Assembly (NCBI GenBank): GCA_028281385.1
Contig: JANQJY010000004.1
Span: forward strand, 72,141-118,797
Direction of reading: 5' to 3'
Length of the DNA: 46,657 nt
Source: Rickettsiales bacterium
Lineage (GTDB): Bacteria > Pseudomonadota > Alphaproteobacteria > Rickettsiales > UBA3002
Part shown: piece by piece, positions 21,020-29,692 of the stretch
Layout of the letters: each line of letters opens with the position of its first letter
Numbering within the stretch: position 1 is the stretch's first letter
Translations under genes and position numbers: made by a program
The notes under the pieces: model-generated
Seen by the model: the letters and a program-made list of their open reading frames with translations, nothing else
Databases searched by the model: none
What the model was told of the DNA's origin: nothing

Positions 21020-21538
21020 CTATGATTGCCCGGCCTGTTCTAAATAGAAAAACACTTCCGTTTCTTGATTGAATCGCACACGTAGTGTGCCTTTAAGTGT
21101 CACCGGATCATAGGAAAAATTAACGGATTCCTCAGCCAGCACCTCGACCATTTGCGACGGTCCGACATGATAATGAAACGGGCAGCTGATCGGATAAGGG
21201 CCGATGAGAAAATTTTTCTGTTTTTCCGTTTCATCCAGCGGAAACATAAAACCCATCAAGGTGACTTCCTGACCGTCCAGCGCTTGCACCTCTTCGGAGT
21301 AGTCGGGTTTGATGATGCAGTTTGTCCAGCCGTTTTCTTCATCTTTCACACATTCTTCCAACTCTTTGGTTTTGGCAAAGAGTGACCAGGGAATGGCATC
21401 ACCCGACACCTCAAGCGGTTTCCATTCCTGCATGAGTCGCTCCAGTTCTTCCGGAGATATGTCTACTTCACTGAAAGCCCATGCGTGAGTCGTCATCAGG
21501 CTTACAAGCAAGCATAAGAAAAAACTATGACGCACCAT
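21020..21538 (-). CDS. DUF3299 secreted protein of the zinc operon
   Basis: The 172-residue protein begins with a Sec-type signal peptide (hydrophobic FFLCLLVSLMTTHAWA, cleavage after Ala-x-Ala-like AWA). The mature part matches DUF3299: DGQEVTLMGFMFPLD, IGPYPISCPFHYHVGPSQMVEV and a C-terminal LKGTLRVRF. The CPFHYH segment offers Cys and His ligands, so metal contact is possible. It overlaps the permease gene by 14 bases and is last in the Zur-controlled operon. DUF3299 proteins often accompany zinc-responsive ABC transporters; the exact function is unknown. Confidence 0.82.
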   Translation of the reverse strand: MVRHSFFLCLLVSLMTTHAWAFSEVDISPEELERLMQEWKPLEVSGDAIPWSLFAKTKELEECVKDEENGWTNCIIKPDYSEEVQALDGQEVTLMGFMFPLDETEKQKNFLIGPYPISCPFHYHVGPSQMVEVLAEESVNFSYDPVTLKGTLRVRFNQETEVFFYLEQAGQS

Positions 21539-22862
21539 GAATCAGCATCTCACGGATATTAAGTCGATATACCTGCCAGGCTGGAATCAGGCAGGCGATG
21601 AAAGAAAGCAGCAACACAATCCCCCAAAGCCAAAGAAGCTGCGGCAGTAAGACAAGCTCGCCAAGCCCAAGCTCCATACCTTTTTCGGTGAACCGGCCGA
21701 GCGTCAGCAAGCCGCCATATCCCAAAGCAACGCCAAGCGTGCTGCCAATCACGGCGATGGTCATCCCTTCAATAACGACGAGTGACACAATGGTATGGCG
21801 GGCTGCGCCGAAGGTACGAAACAGTGCCAGATCATAGCGCCGCTCTCGTACCGCATTGAACAGTGCAATCAATACGCCAAGCAGTGACACACCCACTAAT
21901 ACACCGCCGATGGTCATGAGTGTGTTACTGCCGATGCCAATTAAATCTACCAACCGTGCCATTTCCAACGCCGGACTGGCTGCCTGCATGGCGGTGTTTT
22001 TATTGATTTCGCGCGGGAAGGTGAGGGCGGCTGTGCGGGTACGGTATTGTATGAGCAGTGCGGTAATTTCTTTATTATCGAAGGCTTCGGTATGTTCGTG
22101 TTCATTGTGATGCTCATGCGTGCGATGTGCGTGATTGTGGTGCGCATGGTCATCATGTGTTTTATGCCCATGATCATGGGTGTCATGGTCATGGTGATCG
22201 TGGTGCACATGGTCGTGTGATTCTTTTTGATGATCATGATGGTCGTGATCGCCATGAATATCCCACACGCTTTCAAGCGAGGTTAATACCAGCCGGTCAA
22301 TGACGCGCCCGGTTGGTTGTAAGACTCCCACTACATGATAAGGGTGATCGGCATGTGCATCACCGCTTTCAACCAGCCCATGGCTGCCGACGAGTTTGTC
22401 ACCGATCTGCAAACCGCTTTCTTTGGCCACTTGCGCACCAATGACGGCCTGCATCGGCTTGGCCCAGATGTTGCCTTCTGCTAACTCAGCATCATACAGC
22501 GTCAGGTAAGCCTGTTCAGTCCCCACAATCCGGAAACGCTGAAAGCTATCGCCCAGCGAAAGCGGAATGGCTTGTTTCACTTTGGGGTGCTGCTGAATCC
22601 GGCGTGCATCACTCAGCGCGATATTGCCGGTTGGAATATCCATATGCTGTACAGTTGATAAAATAAGCTGTAACGGGCTGCCCTTGGCACCGACGACGGC
22701 ATCGATACCGGTGCTGTCTTTATAGAGTCGTTCCTGTAATTGATGACCTAACAGGATCAGTGCACTCATCATGCCGACACCCAACGCCATCAGCACAATA
22801 TGCAGGATGCTCATAGACAGGTGGCTGCGCAGATAGATCATGGCGATGGCAAACAGACTCAT
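21525..22862 (-). CDS. FtsX/MacB-type ABC permease with a His-rich loop
   Basis: This 445-residue membrane protein has one N-terminal and three C-terminal membrane segments around a large periplasmic domain, the FtsX/MacB plan (YDLALFRTFGAA is the usual coupling segment). Residues ~203-258 are an insert of about 55 residues with about 26 histidines alternating with Asp/Glu, very probably a Zn-binding loop. It pairs with the ATPase at 22859 (ATGA overlap). Such transporters often act on the cell envelope rather than importing substrate. Here a Zur operator upstream of the operon implies a role in zinc acquisition or in placing zinc-dependent envelope proteins. Confidence 0.85.
   Translation of the reverse strand: MSLFAIAMIYLRSHLSMSILHIVLMALGVGMMSALILLGHQLQERLYKDSTGIDAVVGAKGSPLQLILSTVQHMDIPTGNIALSDARRIQQHPKVKQAIPLSLGDSFQRFRIVGTEQAYLTLYDAELAEGNIWAKPMQAVIGAQVAKESGLQIGDKLVGSHGLVESGDAHADHPYHVVGVLQPTGRVIDRLVLTSLESVWDIHGDHDHHDHQKESHDHVHHDHHDHDTHDHGHKTHDDHAHHNHAHRTHEHHNEHEHTEAFDNKEITALLIQYRTRTAALTFPREINKNTAMQAASPALEMARLVDLIGIGSNTLMTIGGVLVGVSLLGVLIALFNAVRERRYDLALFRTFGAARHTIVSLVVIEGMTIAVIGSTLGVALGYGGLLTLGRFTEKGMELGLGELVLLPQLLWLWGIVLLLSFIACLIPAWQVYRLNIREMLIHGAS
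22088..22257 (-). repeat. Low-complexity His/Asp codon tract
   Basis: CAT/CAC and GAT/GAC codons repeat irregularly and encode the His-rich loop of the permease. Units such as GATCATGATCAT differ in length and spacing, so this is a coding low-complexity tract, not a CRISPR or perfect satellite. Such tracts are prone to slippage. Confidence 0.85.
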
Positions 22863-23527
22863 GCGCTGCCTCCCAATTCTAATATAGAGTCATCGCGAAA
22901 CACGTCACGTACTCGCTGGTCATGCGTGACAATAATGAGCGATGCCCGACATTCCGCCGCCTGTTCTTTCAGTAGGTTCAGCATCTGATCGGTGTTTGTG
23001 TCATCTAATGCCGAAGTGGGCTCGTCGCAAAAAATCCAGGACGGTTTACCGACCACCGCACGCGCCACCGCCAGCCGTTGTGCTTCACCCACGCTTAAGC
23101 GCTCGGCTTTCTGATGGGCTTTATGTGCCAGATTCAGTTCCTTCAGAAGCGTATCAATGCGTGTTTCATCAGCCTCACGTCCGGAGAGGCTCAGCGCCAG
23201 CAACAGATTCTGACGTGCTGTAAATGGTTTCACCAGATGAAAATTCTGGAACAAAATGCCCATCTGCTTGCCGCGAAACTGGTCGCGCTGGTGTTCATTC
23301 AGGTCATACAGATCAACGTCACCATAAACAATGCTTCCACTGTCGGGTTGTTGCAGTCCGGTCAGCATTGCGAGCAGTGTGCTCTTGCCACAGCCCGAAG
23401 GCCCAAGGATGATGGCGGTTGATCCTGCTTTCACCTGCCATGAGGGAAGTGTGAACAGGGTGTTGCCATCATAAGCCGCACTGATATTGGTCGCGTGTAA
23501 ATGGTTGGAAGGAGGATCAGCAGTCAT
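22859..23527 (-). CDS. ABC transporter ATP-binding protein (LolD/MacB-type)
   Basis: The start at 23527 (222 aa) is preferred because the open frame upstream overlaps the preceding gene and lacks homology. Walker A GPSGCGKST, the Q-loop (GILFQNFHLVKPF), signature LSVGEAQRLAVARA and Walker B WIFCDEPTSALDD are all present, so it is active in principle. This subfamily serves FtsX-like permeases. It follows the ZigA-like gene by 32 bases and overlaps the permease by 4, giving an operon under the operator at 24831. Confidence 0.93.
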   Translation of the reverse strand: MTADPPSNHLHATNISAAYDGNTLFTLPSWQVKAGSTAIILGPSGCGKSTLLAMLTGLQQPDSGSIVYGDVDLYDLNEHQRDQFRGKQMGILFQNFHLVKPFTARQNLLLALSLSGREADETRIDTLLKELNLAHKAHQKAERLSVGEAQRLAVARAVVGKPSWIFCDEPTSALDDTNTDQMLNLLKEQAAECRASLIIVTHDQRVRDVFRDDSILELGGSA

Positions 23528-23559
23528 ATCTATCCTAAATGAATCAATGAAGGGGGATA

Positions 23560-24786
23560 TTAGCCGGCTTTTTGAAATTGTTCCATACTCCATTCAGGGA
23601 ACGGGTCAGGCAATTTCTCCCAGCTTTTCCAATCGGACAGCATTTCAGCATCGCTTAAGAGACAGGCATCAAGCTGTTTGCGAAGGGCCGCTTCATCCAT
23701 GCCCGTGCCGATAAACACCATTTCCTGTCGGCGATCACCAAACGGTTCGCTCCAAATGTTTGTCATCATCTCTTTCCATTTTTCATCCTGAGGCCAGTGC
23801 TCTTTGGGAATATTGGCCCACCATCTGCCTGCCGCCTGATGGCGGAGTATGGCTCCGGCGATGGCCAGTTCACCGACCCAATGCATGCGGCTCGCCAGCC
23901 AGAAGAAGCCTTTGGCGCGAATTACGCCGGGGTGTGACGCCTGGGTGAAGGCATAAAAGCGCTCGGGGTGAAAGGGTTTGTCGGAACGATAGACAAAACT
24001 ACTGATCCCATATTCTTCCGTTTCCGGTATATGTTCTCCCATCAGTTCCTGATACCAGCCGGCCATGGCTTCGGCTTCAGCAAAGTCAAACAAACCCGTT
24101 CCCATAATATTGTCTAAATCGACTTTACCATGATCGGTATAGATAAGCGTCGCCTTAGGGTTTTGCGCTTTGACGATCTTGGTCACAATATCCAACTGGT
24201 CTTGTGACACCAAATCGCATTTGTTGATCACAATCACATTTGCAAATTCCATTTGATCGACCAGTAAATCGACCAGCGTACGTTCATCTTCCTCGCCCAG
24301 CGATTCGCCGCGGTCTTTCAGAAAATCCACCGAACTGTAATCAGTGAGCAAATTTGCCGCATCGACAACGGTGACCATCGTATCAAGCTCGGCCACATCG
24401 GACAGGCTCTCGCCATATTCATCGCGAAAGTCAAAGGTGGCTGCGACCGGCATCGGCTCGGAAATACCGGTGGATTCAATCAGCAGATAATCAAACCGCC
24501 CATCTTCGGCGAGCGTTCGTACTTCTTTAAGCAAATCTTCGCGAAGCGTGCAGCAAATGCAGCCATTGGTCATTTCCACCAGCTTTTCTTCGGTACGACT
24601 CAGGTTAGCGCCGCCATCACGCACCAATGTCGCGTCGATATTGACTTCGCTCATGTCATTGACGATGACGGCAACACGTTTGCCTTCCCGGTTATTGAGC
24701 ACCGCGTTCAGGAGAGTGGTTTTCCCCGCGCCTAAAAACCCCGATAATACGGTAACAGGTAGGCGCTCAGAATGATGTAATGCCAT
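23560..24786 (-). CDS. zigA: ZigA/CobW-type G3E GTPase (zinc chaperone)
   Basis: G3E GTPases of this group deliver zinc to client enzymes under zinc starvation. The 408-residue protein has Walker A GFLGAGKT (16-23), the metal-binding CICC motif (Cys76, Cys78, Cys79), a guanine-specificity NKCD motif and the C-terminal CobW_C domain ([17 protein letters not shown] onward). It is first in the reverse operon. A perfect Zur-type palindrome lies 45 bases upstream (24831-24843), so it is probably derepressed when zinc is low. The zigA symbol is by context; a distinct YeiR/YjiA-type paralogue is possible. Confidence 0.85.
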
Positions 24787-24830: not shown

Positions 24831-24843
24831 GTTATAATATAAC
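24831..24843. promoter_or_regulatory. Zur box upstream of the ZigA-ABC operon
   Basis: GTTATAATATAAC is a perfect 13-bp palindrome, identical to those at 25410 and 28127. It fits the alphaproteobacterial Zur operator pattern and lies where it would block the promoter of the operon starting at 24786. Confidence 0.88.
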
Positions 24844-24913: not shown

Positions 24914-25381
24914 TCAGGCGCATTGTTCGCACAGGCCTTCCATCTCCAGACTCATCGCCTGCGGTGTGAAATGGTGTGACTTCGAGATGTTGGCAACCAG
25001 CTTTGGATAAGCGTCATCGTGACACTCTGTTACGGCGTTGCACTCGGTACAGATGAGAAAGAAACAAGGTGTTTTATCGGTTGGGTGCGTACAACCAACA
25101 TAGGCATTCAAACGATGGATTTTGTGAATGAGCCCATGTTCAAGCAGAAAGTCCAGCGCCCGATAGACGGTGGGAGGTTTGGCGGAGGGATCCTCCTTTT
25201 GCAGCTCTGCTAAGAGATCATAGGCTTTGGCGGGTTCATGCGAGGCCCAGATCAATTCCAGCACATGTTTGCGACTATCGGTTAGCCGCGCCCCATGCGT
25301 CGCACAGACGGTTTCTGCTTGTTTGAGCGCCGTGTCAATGCATTGCTGGTGCGAGTGACATACAAAAGACATAGATGTCAT
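24914..25381 (-). CDS. zur: Zinc uptake regulator, Fur family
   Basis: Zur represses zinc-acquisition genes when loaded with zinc. The 155-residue protein has a winged helix (LTDSRKHVLELIWAS...PPTVYRALDFLLEHGLIHKI) and a dimerisation domain with the structural Cys pairs CTEC (in FFLICTECNAV) and C-terminal CEQC, plus sensor-site Cys/His residues in YVGCTHPTDKTPC. The length is normal. A second ATG three codons in is an alternative start. The shared operator at 25410-25422 sits between this gene and the divergent DUF1826 gene, suggesting autoregulation. Confidence 0.93.
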   Translation of the reverse strand: MTSMSFVCHSHQQCIDTALKQAETVCATHGARLTDSRKHVLELIWASHEPAKAYDLLAELQKEDPSAKPPTVYRALDFLLEHGLIHKIHRLNAYVGCTHPTDKTPCFFLICTECNAVTECHDDAYPKLVANISKSHHFTPQAMSLEMEGLCEQCA

Positions 25382-25409: not shown

Positions 25410-25422
25410 GTTATAATATAAC
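25410..25422. promoter_or_regulatory. Zur box between zur and the DUF1826 gene
   Basis: Perfect GTTATAATATAAC palindrome. It ends only 3 bases before the ATG at 25426, leaving no room for a ribosome site, and lies 29 bases from the zur start. It can control both divergent genes. Confidence 0.88.
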
Positions 25423-25425
25423 GCT

Positions 25426-26091
25426 ATGGCGCTTGAAACCTTCCAGATGAATGATGTCGTGAATTTTCCGGATATGGATGAACGCCTGGCGATTATTCAC
25501 CGCGACATACCAGACTCAGGTGCTTTTTTTGATACGCTACTGACGCGCGATGTGGAAATATTCGGCGTAGTAGGATGTGATAGTGCCGAAAAAGACATTC
25601 AATTGCTGTGTAAACCGTCTTTACCATCACACGTTATAGACCATGCCTTTTACTCTGATTGGGTTATCGATATGGCCAATATGTGTCGACTGTTTGGCGA
25701 GTTGCTAAAGAGCGACCGTGTCAGCCTGTGGCTAGGCACTGATCGTGGCTGCCGTCGCTATCATACCGATAATGTACCGATGCGTCTGGTTGTCACCTAT
25801 GCTGGGCGCGGCACCGAGTGGTTGCCCGAAGAGGCAGTCAATCGCACCGCCTATATGGCTGGTGAACCCAATGAGGCCATTTTAACCAACCCGAATGCCA
25901 GACAATGGCTCGAGCCTTGGGGGGTTGGTATTTTTAAAGGCGGCAAAAATGGTGTGCTGCACCGAACACCAGATGACGCGCTGAACCAGCGCACGATGCT
26001 ACTTCGTATTGACCATGCCGATTATTGGAGTGGTATGAATCAACACGGCCTGGATGTGGATGAAAACTATGCGACCACGCCCGCTGTCTGA
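25426..26091 (+). CDS. DUF1826 protein, zinc-regulated
   Basis: The 221-residue protein matches DUF1826: segments CRRYHTDNVPMRLVVTYAGRGTEWLP and NGVLHRTPDD are typical, and the His/Asp pattern resembles cupin or dioxygenase-like metal sites. The biochemical role is unknown, though such genes are often in Zur regulons. The Zur box ends 3 bases before the first ATG, so the message may be leaderless. An internal ATG at codon 8 (MNDVVNF) is an alternative start. It converges with the reverse gene at 26067, overlapping by 25 bases. Confidence 0.85.
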   Translation: MALETFQMNDVVNFPDMDERLAIIHRDIPDSGAFFDTLLTRDVEIFGVVGCDSAEKDIQLLCKPSLPSHVIDHAFYSDWVIDMANMCRLFGELLKSDRVSLWLGTDRGCRRYHTDNVPMRLVVTYAGRGTEWLPEEAVNRTAYMAGEPNEAILTNPNARQWLEPWGVGIFKGGKNGVLHRTPDDALNQRTMLLRIDHADYWSGMNQHGLDVDENYATTPAV

Positions 26092-27092
26092 ACATCACCT
26101 GTCCTGCTATGGTTGACTTTTTCTTCCCATGTCTCCTTTGTAGATTGCCGTTCTTGTTGCCGACGCTGTTCCGCCTTGCCTGAAAGATAGAGCAGCCCGA
26201 TTGCGGCAGCGGTGGTGGTTGCTACCATGAGCACATTCTCCGGTTTTTGACGCTTTACCCAGCTTTCGGTACGTTCCAGCCAGTTGCTCTCTGCGGCAGC
26301 GGTTTCGACAGACGCAGCGCTACGGTTTCCATAGCCACTGTCGCTATAGCCTTCATACGATGAATGAGACGAGCTGGAGGACGCTCCATGACTACTATGA
26401 CTGCACCCTGTCCCGCAGACATGCGGCTCGGATGGAGTAGAAGAATAGCTGCTGCTATAGTCACTATAATTCGATGATGAAGGGGTTATCACCGGAGCAC
26501 GGCCATGATTGCAATGCGGTCCGTGTACATGCCCGGGTTCTCCGCAGGTAGCGCTCTTGGCTGCTTCGGTAACATTCTCCAGCATGTCGGATGATTTGCG
26601 GGCAGGTGCCTGTTCTAATGCTTTGGCAAGCGTGATCGTCTCAACTCCTTCTGTCGGTGCCAGATTGCGAGCGCTGCATCGCACCCATTTCATATTATCC
26701 TGCGAGTATTTTTCCAAATGCTCTTGCAGGGGAGTCAACGTCTCCCTCAGTTTTCCATCTATTACCATTCCCAAGCTGGAAAGCGCTGGCATCTGCGCTT
26801 TATACAACGGTTCGACAAAGGTGCGCGTCTTTTCGTCTGCCAGCGTCAGCGCCTCCTGGAGCGCTTTATGCGCCGCATCATGCGACGCACACCACTGTTC
26901 ATCTTCCAGTAACTGCGATAATTCTGCCAGAAGTTCCGCTCCCTTCGGGTTTAGCGGTTTGTCATTAAATTGTCCGACAAAGGCTTTCAACTCTCCGGAA
27001 GAATACTGCAAAGGTTTAATCGCTGGCTTTTGCTCAAAGAAGGAGTCCACATTCGGTAAAGCGTTGGCAGGGGGAGGATCGGGTTGGGTCAT
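26067..27092 (-). CDS. Unrecognised Cys/His-rich tail-anchored protein
   Basis: I do not recognise this 341-residue protein. Residues 1-175 are helical with no known domain. Two Cys/His clusters follow: CGEPGHVHGPHCNH (183-196) and HVCGTGCSHSSHG (224-236), separated and followed by long Ser/Tyr/Gly-rich linkers. One hydrophobic segment (about 287-304) and a positive tail suggest a membrane anchor at the C-terminus. It overlaps the upstream gene by 4 bases (ATGA), so both depend on the Zur box at 28127. A zinc-binding membrane-associated role is inferred from ligands and regulation only. Confidence 0.65.
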   Translation of the reverse strand: MTQPDPPPANALPNVDSFFEQKPAIKPLQYSSGELKAFVGQFNDKPLNPKGAELLAELSQLLEDEQWCASHDAAHKALQEALTLADEKTRTFVEPLYKAQMPALSSLGMVIDGKLRETLTPLQEHLEKYSQDNMKWVRCSARNLAPTEGVETITLAKALEQAPARKSSDMLENVTEAAKSATCGEPGHVHGPHCNHGRAPVITPSSSNYSDYSSSYSSTPSEPHVCGTGCSHSSHGASSSSSHSSYEGYSDSGYGNRSAASVETAAAESNWLERTESWVKRQKPENVLMVATTTAAAIGLLYLSGKAEQRRQQERQSTKETWEEKVNHSRTGDVQTAGVVA

Positions 27093-28096
27093 GCGGTGTG
27101 TCCAATCGCCTCGTGTTTTTGGTGATTAATCATGTCTTGTGTCCACTTGCCGTCATGATAGTGCCTTTTTTCGGCAATCGCTTCGTCCACGATCTTATCG
27201 TCAATGCCCATGCCACGGGTGACGATTTTGGTGAGGGGTGTCACCATATGATCTTCAGTCCAGTTGGTAAAATGGTGCGCGGTTTCGGGAAAGATTGCGC
27301 GTGTTCCCAGTACCAAACCGATACTCAAACTGGCACCACCAATTTTGGTCATAATGCGCCGGTGTAGAGTGCCGAGCGGAAACTCCTGACGGATTTGCGG
27401 TGTTGCCATATATTCATAGAAAGGCTGCTGCAGGCCGATATTAAAAACTGATGACCAAGCCGTCCACCAGGCTGCTTGTGGTAGATGGTGCATTTCATGT
27501 TCGTAAATGTCATTCAAATGTTCTTTATATTCGTCTGAGCCCTGCGCAATGCCATGCTGCTTTGCCCATTGATTGGTAGAACGCTCGGCTCCCCAATGAA
27601 AGATGGGGCCAAGCGTAGTACGCAATACCGGGCGAATGCCGTCCATCGCCCATGGTGTATAGCGTTGCATCAGGACGGTCGGGATCACGCCAGCAAAATC
27701 TCCGACAACTTCTGCTCCCCCAAAAGTAAACTCCAATGCTTTAATGTGTTTTAGATGCTCTGATGCCACCATCCCTTTGTGACCATGGTGATGATCATGG
27801 TGATCATGCCCACAACTGCTTCCGTCCTCATGTTTATGAAAAGGGTTGCTGCAGCCGATATGTTTCGGATTGCGCACACCGAACGCTTTCTGCAGCGCAA
27901 CCATCATTTGCGTTTGTCCAAACCAGTCCACTGCGGTGCAAGCAAACGCGTGGTTGATCGTATAGGCAATATCTTTGGCCTGCTGTTGCTCGTGTTTCTG
28001 TTTGTCAGACAGTTCCGATCGTTTGGCGATCTCAGGTTCTAATGTACTGTCCGCAATGGTCGGTGTGTGATTCTGCTCTGGACGCGGTGGTGACAT
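27089..28096 (-). CDS. Unrecognised His-rich protein under Zur control
   Basis: The start at 28096 (335 aa) has ATAGGATT just upstream; the frame extends to 28141, but that would run across the Zur box. No known family is visible. A metal-binding cluster spans residues ~82-106, with Cys82, Cys95 and about a dozen His (HKHEDGSSCGHDHHDHHHGH). The C-terminal part has a hydrophobic stretch (GASLSIGLVLGTRAIF) and several further His (EHEMHHLPQAAWW). It is first in a two-gene operon and probably cooperates with the downstream Cys/His protein. A zinc store, chaperone or metallopeptidase-like role are alternatives; HEMHH resembles HExxH, but the context is insufficient. Confidence 0.65.
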   Translation of the reverse strand: MSPPRPEQNHTPTIADSTLEPEIAKRSELSDKQKHEQQQAKDIAYTINHAFACTAVDWFGQTQMMVALQKAFGVRNPKHIGCSNPFHKHEDGSSCGHDHHDHHHGHKGMVASEHLKHIKALEFTFGGAEVVGDFAGVIPTVLMQRYTPWAMDGIRPVLRTTLGPIFHWGAERSTNQWAKQHGIAQGSDEYKEHLNDIYEHEMHHLPQAAWWTAWSSVFNIGLQQPFYEYMATPQIRQEFPLGTLHRRIMTKIGGASLSIGLVLGTRAIFPETAHHFTNWTEDHMVTPLTKIVTRGMGIDDKIVDEAIAEKRHYHDGKWTQDMINHQKHEAIGHTA

Positions 28097-28126: not shown

Positions 28127-28139
28127 GTTATAATATAAC
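28127..28139. promoter_or_regulatory. Zur box upstream of the His-rich gene pair
   Basis: Perfect GTTATAATATAAC palindrome, 30 bases before the start at 28096 on the reverse strand and 83 bases before the selO start on the forward strand. It probably represses the reverse operon; an effect on selO is possible but less certain because of the distance. Confidence 0.85.
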
Positions 28140-28222
28140 ATTACATCTTCTGTGATAGCGAGCGGAAAGGACCGCTGTCATCAAATCTTCATAAAGGGAC
28201 AAAAGGTAGATGGAGTGCAGCA

Positions 28223-29692
28223 TTGAATAATGACATGCATAGGGTAGGCTGGCGATTCGACAATAGCTATGCACGTCTGCCGGAGCGTTTCTATACACGC
28301 ATGGATCCTGTGCCGGTTCAAAACCCGAAGGTGGTGATCATCAATCATGCATTAGCGGGTGAACGGGGCCTGAAGCTCGATGGGCTTTCAGACGATCAAT
28401 TAGCACAATTATTCTCCGGCAATACCTTGCCTGAGGGGGCAGAGTCACTGGCACAAGCCTATGCCGGACATCAGTTTGGCCATTTTACGCTGCTTGGCGA
28501 CGGTCGCGCGCATCTGATCGGCGAGCATATGTCTGCGGATGGAACGCGTGTCGATATTCAGTTTAAGGGCTCTGGTCAAACACCCTATGGCAGGCGGGGG
28601 GATGGGCGTGCCGTAATTGGGCCAATGCTGCGCGAATATATCATCAGCGAAGCGATGCATGCGTTAGGCATTCCGACGACACGCAGCCTTGCTGTTGTGA
28701 CAACGGGTGAACCAGTCTATCGCGAGACCACGCTGCAAGGCGCCATCCTCACGCGTGTTGCTTCCAGCCACCTGCGTGTGGGAACGTTTGAATATCTGGC
28801 TGCGCATGAGGATATCGAAGGGCTTAAATGTCTTGCAGATTATGCGATCACACGCCACTATCCCAAATTAACAACATCTGATCAGCCTTATCTGGATTTG
28901 ATCAGGGAGGTAATGCAGCGACAGATTGCGCTTATCGTCGACTGGCTGCGCATAGGGTTCATCCACGGAGTCATGAATACCGACAATATGACGGTTTCCG
29001 GCGAAACGATCGATTATGGACCGTGTGCCTTTATGGATGCATATGATCCGCAAACCGTATTCAGTTCGATTGACCAGACGGGGCGCTATGCTTATGCCAA
29101 TCAACCGCATATGGTGCAGTGGAACATCGCCCGCTTCGCCGAGGCGCTATTACCACTACTGCATGAAGACATGAAGCAGGCCGTCACACTGGCTGAGAAA
29201 GTCATTGCTTCATTCAATGGTACTTTTCAGCAGGCATGGATGAATATGATGCGTCAAAAGCTTGGACTGTTTGGAGAAGCAAAAGAGGATGAACAGCTGA
29301 TTGGCGATCTATTAAAATGGATGCAGCAACATCATGCGGATTACACCAACAGCTTCCGTGACCTGATGTCTGAAACCATACCCACGGGCAAGCCGTATCA
29401 GACCGACGAATTTACACGCTGGTGGGAGCGTTGGCAGCAGAGGTTAACACAAAACCATACATCTTCGAGTGAATCACGACAGCGTATGCAGGCCAGTAAC
29501 CCAGTCATCATACCGCGCAACCATCAGGTTGAAGCGGCTTTATCAGTAGCAGAGGACTATGCTGATTTTAGCAAATTACATCAATTGCTTAAGGCATTGT
29601 CCGAACCCTATCGGGACAGACAAGCCTTTGCGGAATATCACATGCCACCAAAGCCAGACCAACGTGTCTATCAAACCTTTTGTGGTACCTAA
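28223..29692 (+). CDS. selO: SelO-family protein AMPylase (YdiU)
   Basis: SelO is a pseudokinase-fold enzyme that transfers AMP to Ser/Thr/Tyr of client proteins in redox stress. The 489-residue length is normal. The nucleotide and metal sites are visible: QFKGSGQTPYGRRGDGRA, LTRVASSHLRVG, IHGVMNTDNM and DYGPCAFMD. The C-terminal Cys (FCGT end) takes the place of the selenocysteine in eukaryotic homologues. The start is TTG 28223 with GGAG 7 bases upstream; the first ATG (28235) has no close ribosome site. The nearby Zur box is directed at the divergent genes, so its effect here is uncertain. Confidence 0.93.
   Translation: MNNDMHRVGWRFDNSYARLPERFYTRMDPVPVQNPKVVIINHALAGERGLKLDGLSDDQLAQLFSGNTLPEGAESLAQAYAGHQFGHFTLLGDGRAHLIGEHMSADGTRVDIQFKGSGQTPYGRRGDGRAVIGPMLREYIISEAMHALGIPTTRSLAVVTTGEPVYRETTLQGAILTRVASSHLRVGTFEYLAAHEDIEGLKCLADYAITRHYPKLTTSDQPYLDLIREVMQRQIALIVDWLRIGFIHGVMNTDNMTVSGETIDYGPCAFMDAYDPQTVFSSIDQTGRYAYANQPHMVQWNIARFAEALLPLLHEDMKQAVTLAEKVIASFNGTFQQAWMNMMRQKLGLFGEAKEDEQLIGDLLKWMQQHHADYTNSFRDLMSETIPTGKPYQTDEFTRWWERWQQRLTQNHTSSSESRQRMQASNPVIIPRNHQVEAALSVAEDYADFSKLHQLLKALSEPYRDRQAFAEYHMPPKPDQRVYQTFCGT

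Follow-up and report, generated by a model that had tools for sequence, protein, structure and literature searches.

Two overlapping genes behind a Zur box, encoding Cys/His-rich proteins outside the known families, raise the question of what such a pair contributes when zinc runs short. The genes lie in a 46,657-nucleotide stretch of a Rickettsiales draft genome (the window), which is part of a contig of 118,797 bases; the whole draft comprises 2.15 Mb. The first gene, which we call B, and its downstream partner, A, share the four bases ATGA at 27089-27092. A second candidate start of B, the ATG at 28141, is on the far side of the Zur box, and because of this position the 350-residue open reading frame in the mechanical list is too long; the ATG at 28096, chosen in the earlier note and preceded by AGG, was preferred. 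The overlapping pair under a perfect Zur box described in that note was confirmed in its coordinates, its ATGA overlap and its palindrome (Table 1).

Table 1 Features of the B-A locus, of the surrounding genes and of a small protein gene from other genomes. Positions are those of the window unless a locus is named.
Feature	Position	Strand	Remarks
DUF3299 protein, PA4066-like	21020-21538	minus	library match
MacB/FtsX-type permease, PA4065-like	21525-22862	minus	carries His-rich loop
ABC ATPase, PA4064-like	22859-23593	minus	Pfam/NCBIfam scans
zigA	23560-24786	minus	COG0523 zinc metallochaperone GTPase; above NF038288 cut-off
Zur box	24831-24843	none	before zigA operon
zur	24914-25381	minus	Fur family; best NCBIfam match Zur, below that model's cut-off
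Zur box	25410-25422	none	between zur and DUF1826
DUF1826 protein	25426-26091	plus	Zur-regulon neighbour
Gene A	26067-27092	minus	341 aa; downstream partner of B
A, C-terminal WEEKV	26115-26129	minus	W-x-x-[RK]-[LVIMT] tail motif, also in many B proteins
A, hydrophobic segment, residues 287-305	26178-26234	minus	KD 1.69; single such segment in A
A, Cys/His cluster 2, residues 224-235	26388-26423	minus	HVCGTGCSHSSH
A, Cys/His cluster 1, residues 183-196	26505-26546	minus	CGEPGHVHGPHCNH; contains HVHGPHCNH
A, helical N-terminal domain, residues 12-165	26598-27059	minus	conserved W-x(3)-H-x-A-A-H
Gene B	27089-28096	minus	335 aa from ATG 28096; first gene of pair
B, HEMHH, residues 200-204	27485-27499	minus	E201 and H204 invariant
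B, residues 129-133	27698-27712	minus	E129 and D133 invariant
B, His/Cys-rich disordered loop, residues 79-106	27779-27862	minus	HIGCSNPFHKHEDGSSCGHDHHDHHHGH
Zur operator (very probable)	28127-28139	none	GTTATAATATAAC; between B-A and selO; perfect palindrome
SelO (protein adenylyltransferase)	28223-29692	plus	divergent from B, same Zur box
Small CCGIPTL/CCGVPLL membrane protein	L063 1621-1980; L122 4798-5157; L124 662-1024		

The box GTTATAATATAAC is separated from the ATG of B by 31 bp. Three matches were found in the window, against 0.00 expected from window shuffles, and the genome contains four exact boxes and no copy of the reversed control pattern. The other three boxes are located before zigA, at zur/DUF1826 and before a second COG0523 GTPase. 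Tested Zur operators of Caulobacter have a like form (e.g., GTTATATCATAAC and GTTACTTTATAAC; PMC4176598), and in relatives the same box was found at zur plus znuA or zigA. On account of its form, its neighbours in the genome and the boxes of the relatives, the site at 28127-28139 is very probably a Zur operator, and repression of B-A by Zur can be predicted with near certainty.

The box at 24831 is followed by zigA, the ABC ATPase, the MacB/FtsX permease and the DUF3299 gene, in this order. DUF1826 and COG0523 genes are known to associate with Zur sites (PMC2770081). In Pseudomonas, PA4064-PA4066 is a proposed exporter of a pyochelin-cobalt complex, and its His-rich partner PA4063/ZrgA binds periplasmic zinc (PMC11481552, PMC8561739). 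The permease of the window contains an extended loop, rich in His and Asp, that matches ZrgA weakly (E 0.0026), and may itself incorporate the apparently missing His-rich partner; a control search for the ZrgA family matched it nowhere. The GTPase behind the fourth box (L004 359-1513, G000:C93) is rich in His, and the gene after it is, we presume, metE, which encodes a zinc enzyme. In another genus (G011; L116 3282-4784), zur and selO overlap at the end of zur and stand behind a Zur box, so SelO may take part in the way this order responds to zinc starvation. Next to zur, two other genomes (one of them twice) encode a small membrane protein bearing the motif CCGIPTL or CCGVPLL.

Pfam, NCBIfam and PHROGs offered no family for A or B at useful E-values, the B profile had no match among PDB sequences at E up to 1, and no description of either protein was found in the papers searched. 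Fold searches with the two models gave nothing at E < 0.001, with middling Z; since both models are helical, this result does not tell a known fold from a new one. The earlier note had called the pair undescribed, which holds for every library searched, and the homologue search proposed there as a check matched neither protein to a characterised family.

B was found in 33 of the 344 genomes of the order, distributed over six of the order's families. Two of 385 genomes in the class sample and two of 398 in the phylum sample also carried it, all from the same order; in the sampled class and phylum genomes no B was found outside the order, and none was found on plasmids or viral contigs. In the contig search, a single B protein gave no match and the B alignment found eight relatives. 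A is rarer, being present in five genomes of one family and always linked to Zur. In three relatives a perfect Zur box stands directly before A, in the window A follows B behind the box, and in the fifth genome an A N-terminus, truncated by unrelated sequence, lies just behind zigA. In one of these genomes (G013), a single open reading frame of 548 residues beside zur encodes A fused to B, in keeping with the earlier proposal that the two proteins form a module. A and B thus appear specific to one order of mostly uncultured alphaproteobacteria, the only place where they were found among the sampled genomes.

We then compared the surroundings of these genes. A perfect GTTAYRNYRTAAC was present upstream of 7 of the 36 A/B genes with an upstream stretch, and boxes with one mismatch upstream of none. 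When three further B loci were included, it preceded 9 of 39 A/B genes and 4 of 411 other open reading frames in the same loci, the latter including the second COG0523 GTPase and a Zrg-like ABC operon; the Fisher p of 6e-8 serves as a guide and not as an exact probability because the genes are related. Co-occurrence of homologues with Zur boxes, which had been suggested as a check, is borne out by these counts. Counts of exact boxes alone were set aside in the relatives, since the reversed control outnumbered them in many genomes. The operator is conserved in the Zur-linked branches and not in all paralogues.

B lies with zur, znu or a Zrg-like ABC operon in about 12 genomes. The gene order is zur-znuC-znuB-B-znuA in G1023, where B and znuA overlap; B adjoins both a Zrg-like ABC operon and zur-znuCBA in G068, is divergent from zur and an ABC-DUF3299 operon in G087 and G094, and adjoins ABC genes in G029 and G075. 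About 20 of the 33 B-bearing genomes have no Zur link. On the B tree the Zur-linked label requires six changes, of which at least four are forced by supported branches (mean of ten for shuffled labels), so that descent of a single neighbourhood does not account for the link. The motif [HD]GxxCxH, mostly within HxHGPxCxH and defined after the sequences had been seen, is carried by half of the Zur-linked B domains (6 of 12) but by one of 22 unlinked B proteins and none of 437 other open reading frames; the A proteins of the window and of G001 have it too, as does the A portion of the fusion. These comparisons argue strongly for Zur control, for linkage to zinc uptake and for A and B acting together. 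The zinc role and Zur control that the earlier note had assumed are strongly supported by the operators before A/B genes and by the recurrent neighbours zur, znuABC, Zrg-like ABC and zigA.

In the model of A (pLDDT 65), a helical N-terminal domain, predicted with confidence for about residues 12-165, is followed by a disordered stretch and then by a hydrophobic helix at the C-terminus. The two Cys/His clusters previously seen in the second protein are both within the disordered stretch, at residues 183-196 and 224-235. A helix modelled at residues 284-332 with low confidence spans the hydrophobic segment 287-305, which is probably a C-terminal membrane anchor, as had been supposed. Within the last 45 residues, the tail W-x-x-[RK]-[LVIMT] was found in 16 of 40 A and B proteins versus 4 of 326 open reading frames (L042, L045, L049, L060 and others), and it is possibly a docking peptide common to both proteins. 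A genome-wide sorting signal of this form was rejected, the motif being present in 6 of 228 open reading frames of the own genome, one of them A.

The model of B (mean pLDDT 79) is all-helical apart from a disordered loop, residues 75-105, that contains the His/Cys cluster; the His-rich cluster placed earlier at about residues 82-106 corresponds to this loop (79-106). The genome has a second B paralogue behind recJ, with a loop even richer in His and no Zur box; high His content alone is not restricted to Zur-linked copies. The recJ-linked paralogue keeps the same gene order in two genera, without a Zur box (L039 6463-7533 = G000:C26; L051 5639-6676). B domains are also joined with other undescribed helical domains in proteins of 500-700 residues (L046, L049, L061, L073, L074). 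Twelve residues (C53, D57, E129, D133, P148, W177, Y198, E201, H204, W211, R266 and P270) are identical in 31 of 31 near-complete members, and D42, H49, T140 and M151 in 30 of 31. The core residues are invariant also in copies lacking the His-rich loop and the Zur box, which argues for an independent activity of the helical core. This activity may predate the zinc loop or be distinct from it, and need not involve zinc. Neither A nor B has an N-terminal hydrophobic signal segment by sequence and hydropathy.

Among known systems, AztD and ZinT are accessory zinc-binding chaperones encoded with zinc ABC transporters. Both are periplasmic with known folds, in contrast to what is predicted for A and B, which were compared with them at the level of the library scans. 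AztABCD is one such system (PMC7731109). PA4063/ZrgA shares with A/B a His-rich disordered loop, metal-binding in ZrgA and presumably so in A/B, as well as Zur control, here predicted from the operators, and is encoded with the same PA4064-PA4066-like ABC and DUF3299 genes (PMC8561739, PMC11481552). However, ZrgA is secreted and periplasmic with a ferredoxin-like fold, whereas A and B are predicted to be helical and have no signal peptide, and neither matched the ZrgA models PF10986 and NF047873 in Pfam and NCBIfam. The COG0523 GTPases (ZigA, YciC, ZrpX) are Zur-regulated zinc handlers and neighbours of A/B here (PMC2770081); the cobW match that their P-loop GTPase domain would give was found in neither A nor B. 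ZrpW of Caulobacter crescentus is repressed by Zur, as predicted here for A/B, and comes from a family that has not been characterised; its gene has a COG0523 neighbour and an operator closely resembling the one in the window. It differs from A/B in being described as a six-transmembrane putative transporter (PMC4176598).

Taken together, A and B are probably new helpers of zinc uptake. As to their mode of action, we favour, with confidence about midway between doubt and conviction, zinc-starvation accessory proteins that form a zinc relay with Znu/Zrg and ZigA at the cytoplasmic face of the inner membrane. As long as zinc suffices, Zur would repress B and A; when zinc is scarce, Zur would come off the operator, and ZigA, DUF1826 and the Zrg-like ABC proteins would be made together with B and A. 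The C-terminal segment of A would sit in the inner membrane and offer the two Cys/His clusters on a flexible tether, and B would contribute its His/Cys loop on the helical core. Close to the Znu or Zrg transporters, the two proteins would take up zinc at the cytoplasmic side of the membrane and hand it to ZigA and essential zinc enzymes. The cytoplasmic-face position and the relay are tentative suggestions, and His-rich loops can bind metals besides zinc.

It is conceivable, though rather unlikely, that B is instead an integral inner-membrane transporter or transporter subunit, in which H49, D57, E129, D133, E201 and H204 in four semi-hydrophobic helices form a metal path, the His-rich loop is the collecting arm and A is accessory. 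The multi-helix model, the invariant charged residues within such helices and the position of B inside the znu operon of G1023 are consistent with this. However, the family medians of hydropathy for the four helices (0.93, 1.21, 0.93 and 1.34, with almost none at 1.6) are under the usual transmembrane cut-offs, the fold search yielded no transporter fold, and znuABC-type operons function elsewhere without B. The intermediate hydropathy suggests that B may be a peripheral, re-entrant or unusual membrane protein.

A helical metalloenzyme, either zincin-like with HExxH or a bundle with an E/D/H metal site, whose Zur-linked copies are the zinc-starvation versions, is an unlikely reading of B. HExxH is present in 10 of 12 Zur-linked copies, and E201, H204, E129, D133, C53 and D57 are invariant, but the first His of the motif, retained in the B of the window, is Tyr or Lys in several members, so that the strict zincin pattern fails. 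Pfam metallopeptidase matches were weak and limited to single members (E 0.02 to 0.09), and no match was listed for the B model in the fold search.

Zinc-starvation replacement paralogues are known for ribosomal proteins and FolE2, and a core function of B unrelated to zinc, with the Zur-linked copy replacing a sibling in starvation, would accord with the two paralogues of this genome, only one of which has a Zur box, and with the majority of B copies in the order having no Zur link. We regard this as quite improbable: the Zur-linked copies are richer in the Cys/His motif, the opposite of known zinc-sparing replacements, B is within the znu operon in G1023, and no unlinked paralogue of A was found. 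Storage, for which the disordered His/Cys-rich loops might seem suited as a sponge keeping zinc for later, is highly improbable because Zur-repressed genes are made in starvation and are off at plentiful zinc, when a store would fill, and the partner genes serve uptake; of the storage, buffering or trafficking roles in the earlier note, buffering or trafficking at the membrane would fit best.

Next to the relay at the cytoplasmic face, a bolder and rather doubtful view is that B represents a novel class of membrane proteins for zinc starvation. It would then be a helical protein of unsolved fold, either a subunit of a transporter or a metalloenzyme, and an integral part of zinc import (zur-znuC-znuB-B-znuA) in this one order of alphaproteobacteria; A would be its partner, anchored by the tail and presenting zinc. 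The known zinc-starvation helpers of Gram-negative bacteria are periplasmic chaperones, GTPases and zinc-free replacement proteins. If our reading is true, a lineage-specific pair without signal peptides, whose genes stand within or next to operons for zinc import, would indicate a poorly known step of zinc handling just inside the membrane, and its role could be tested through the residues that are conserved and the naturally occurring fusion of A with B.
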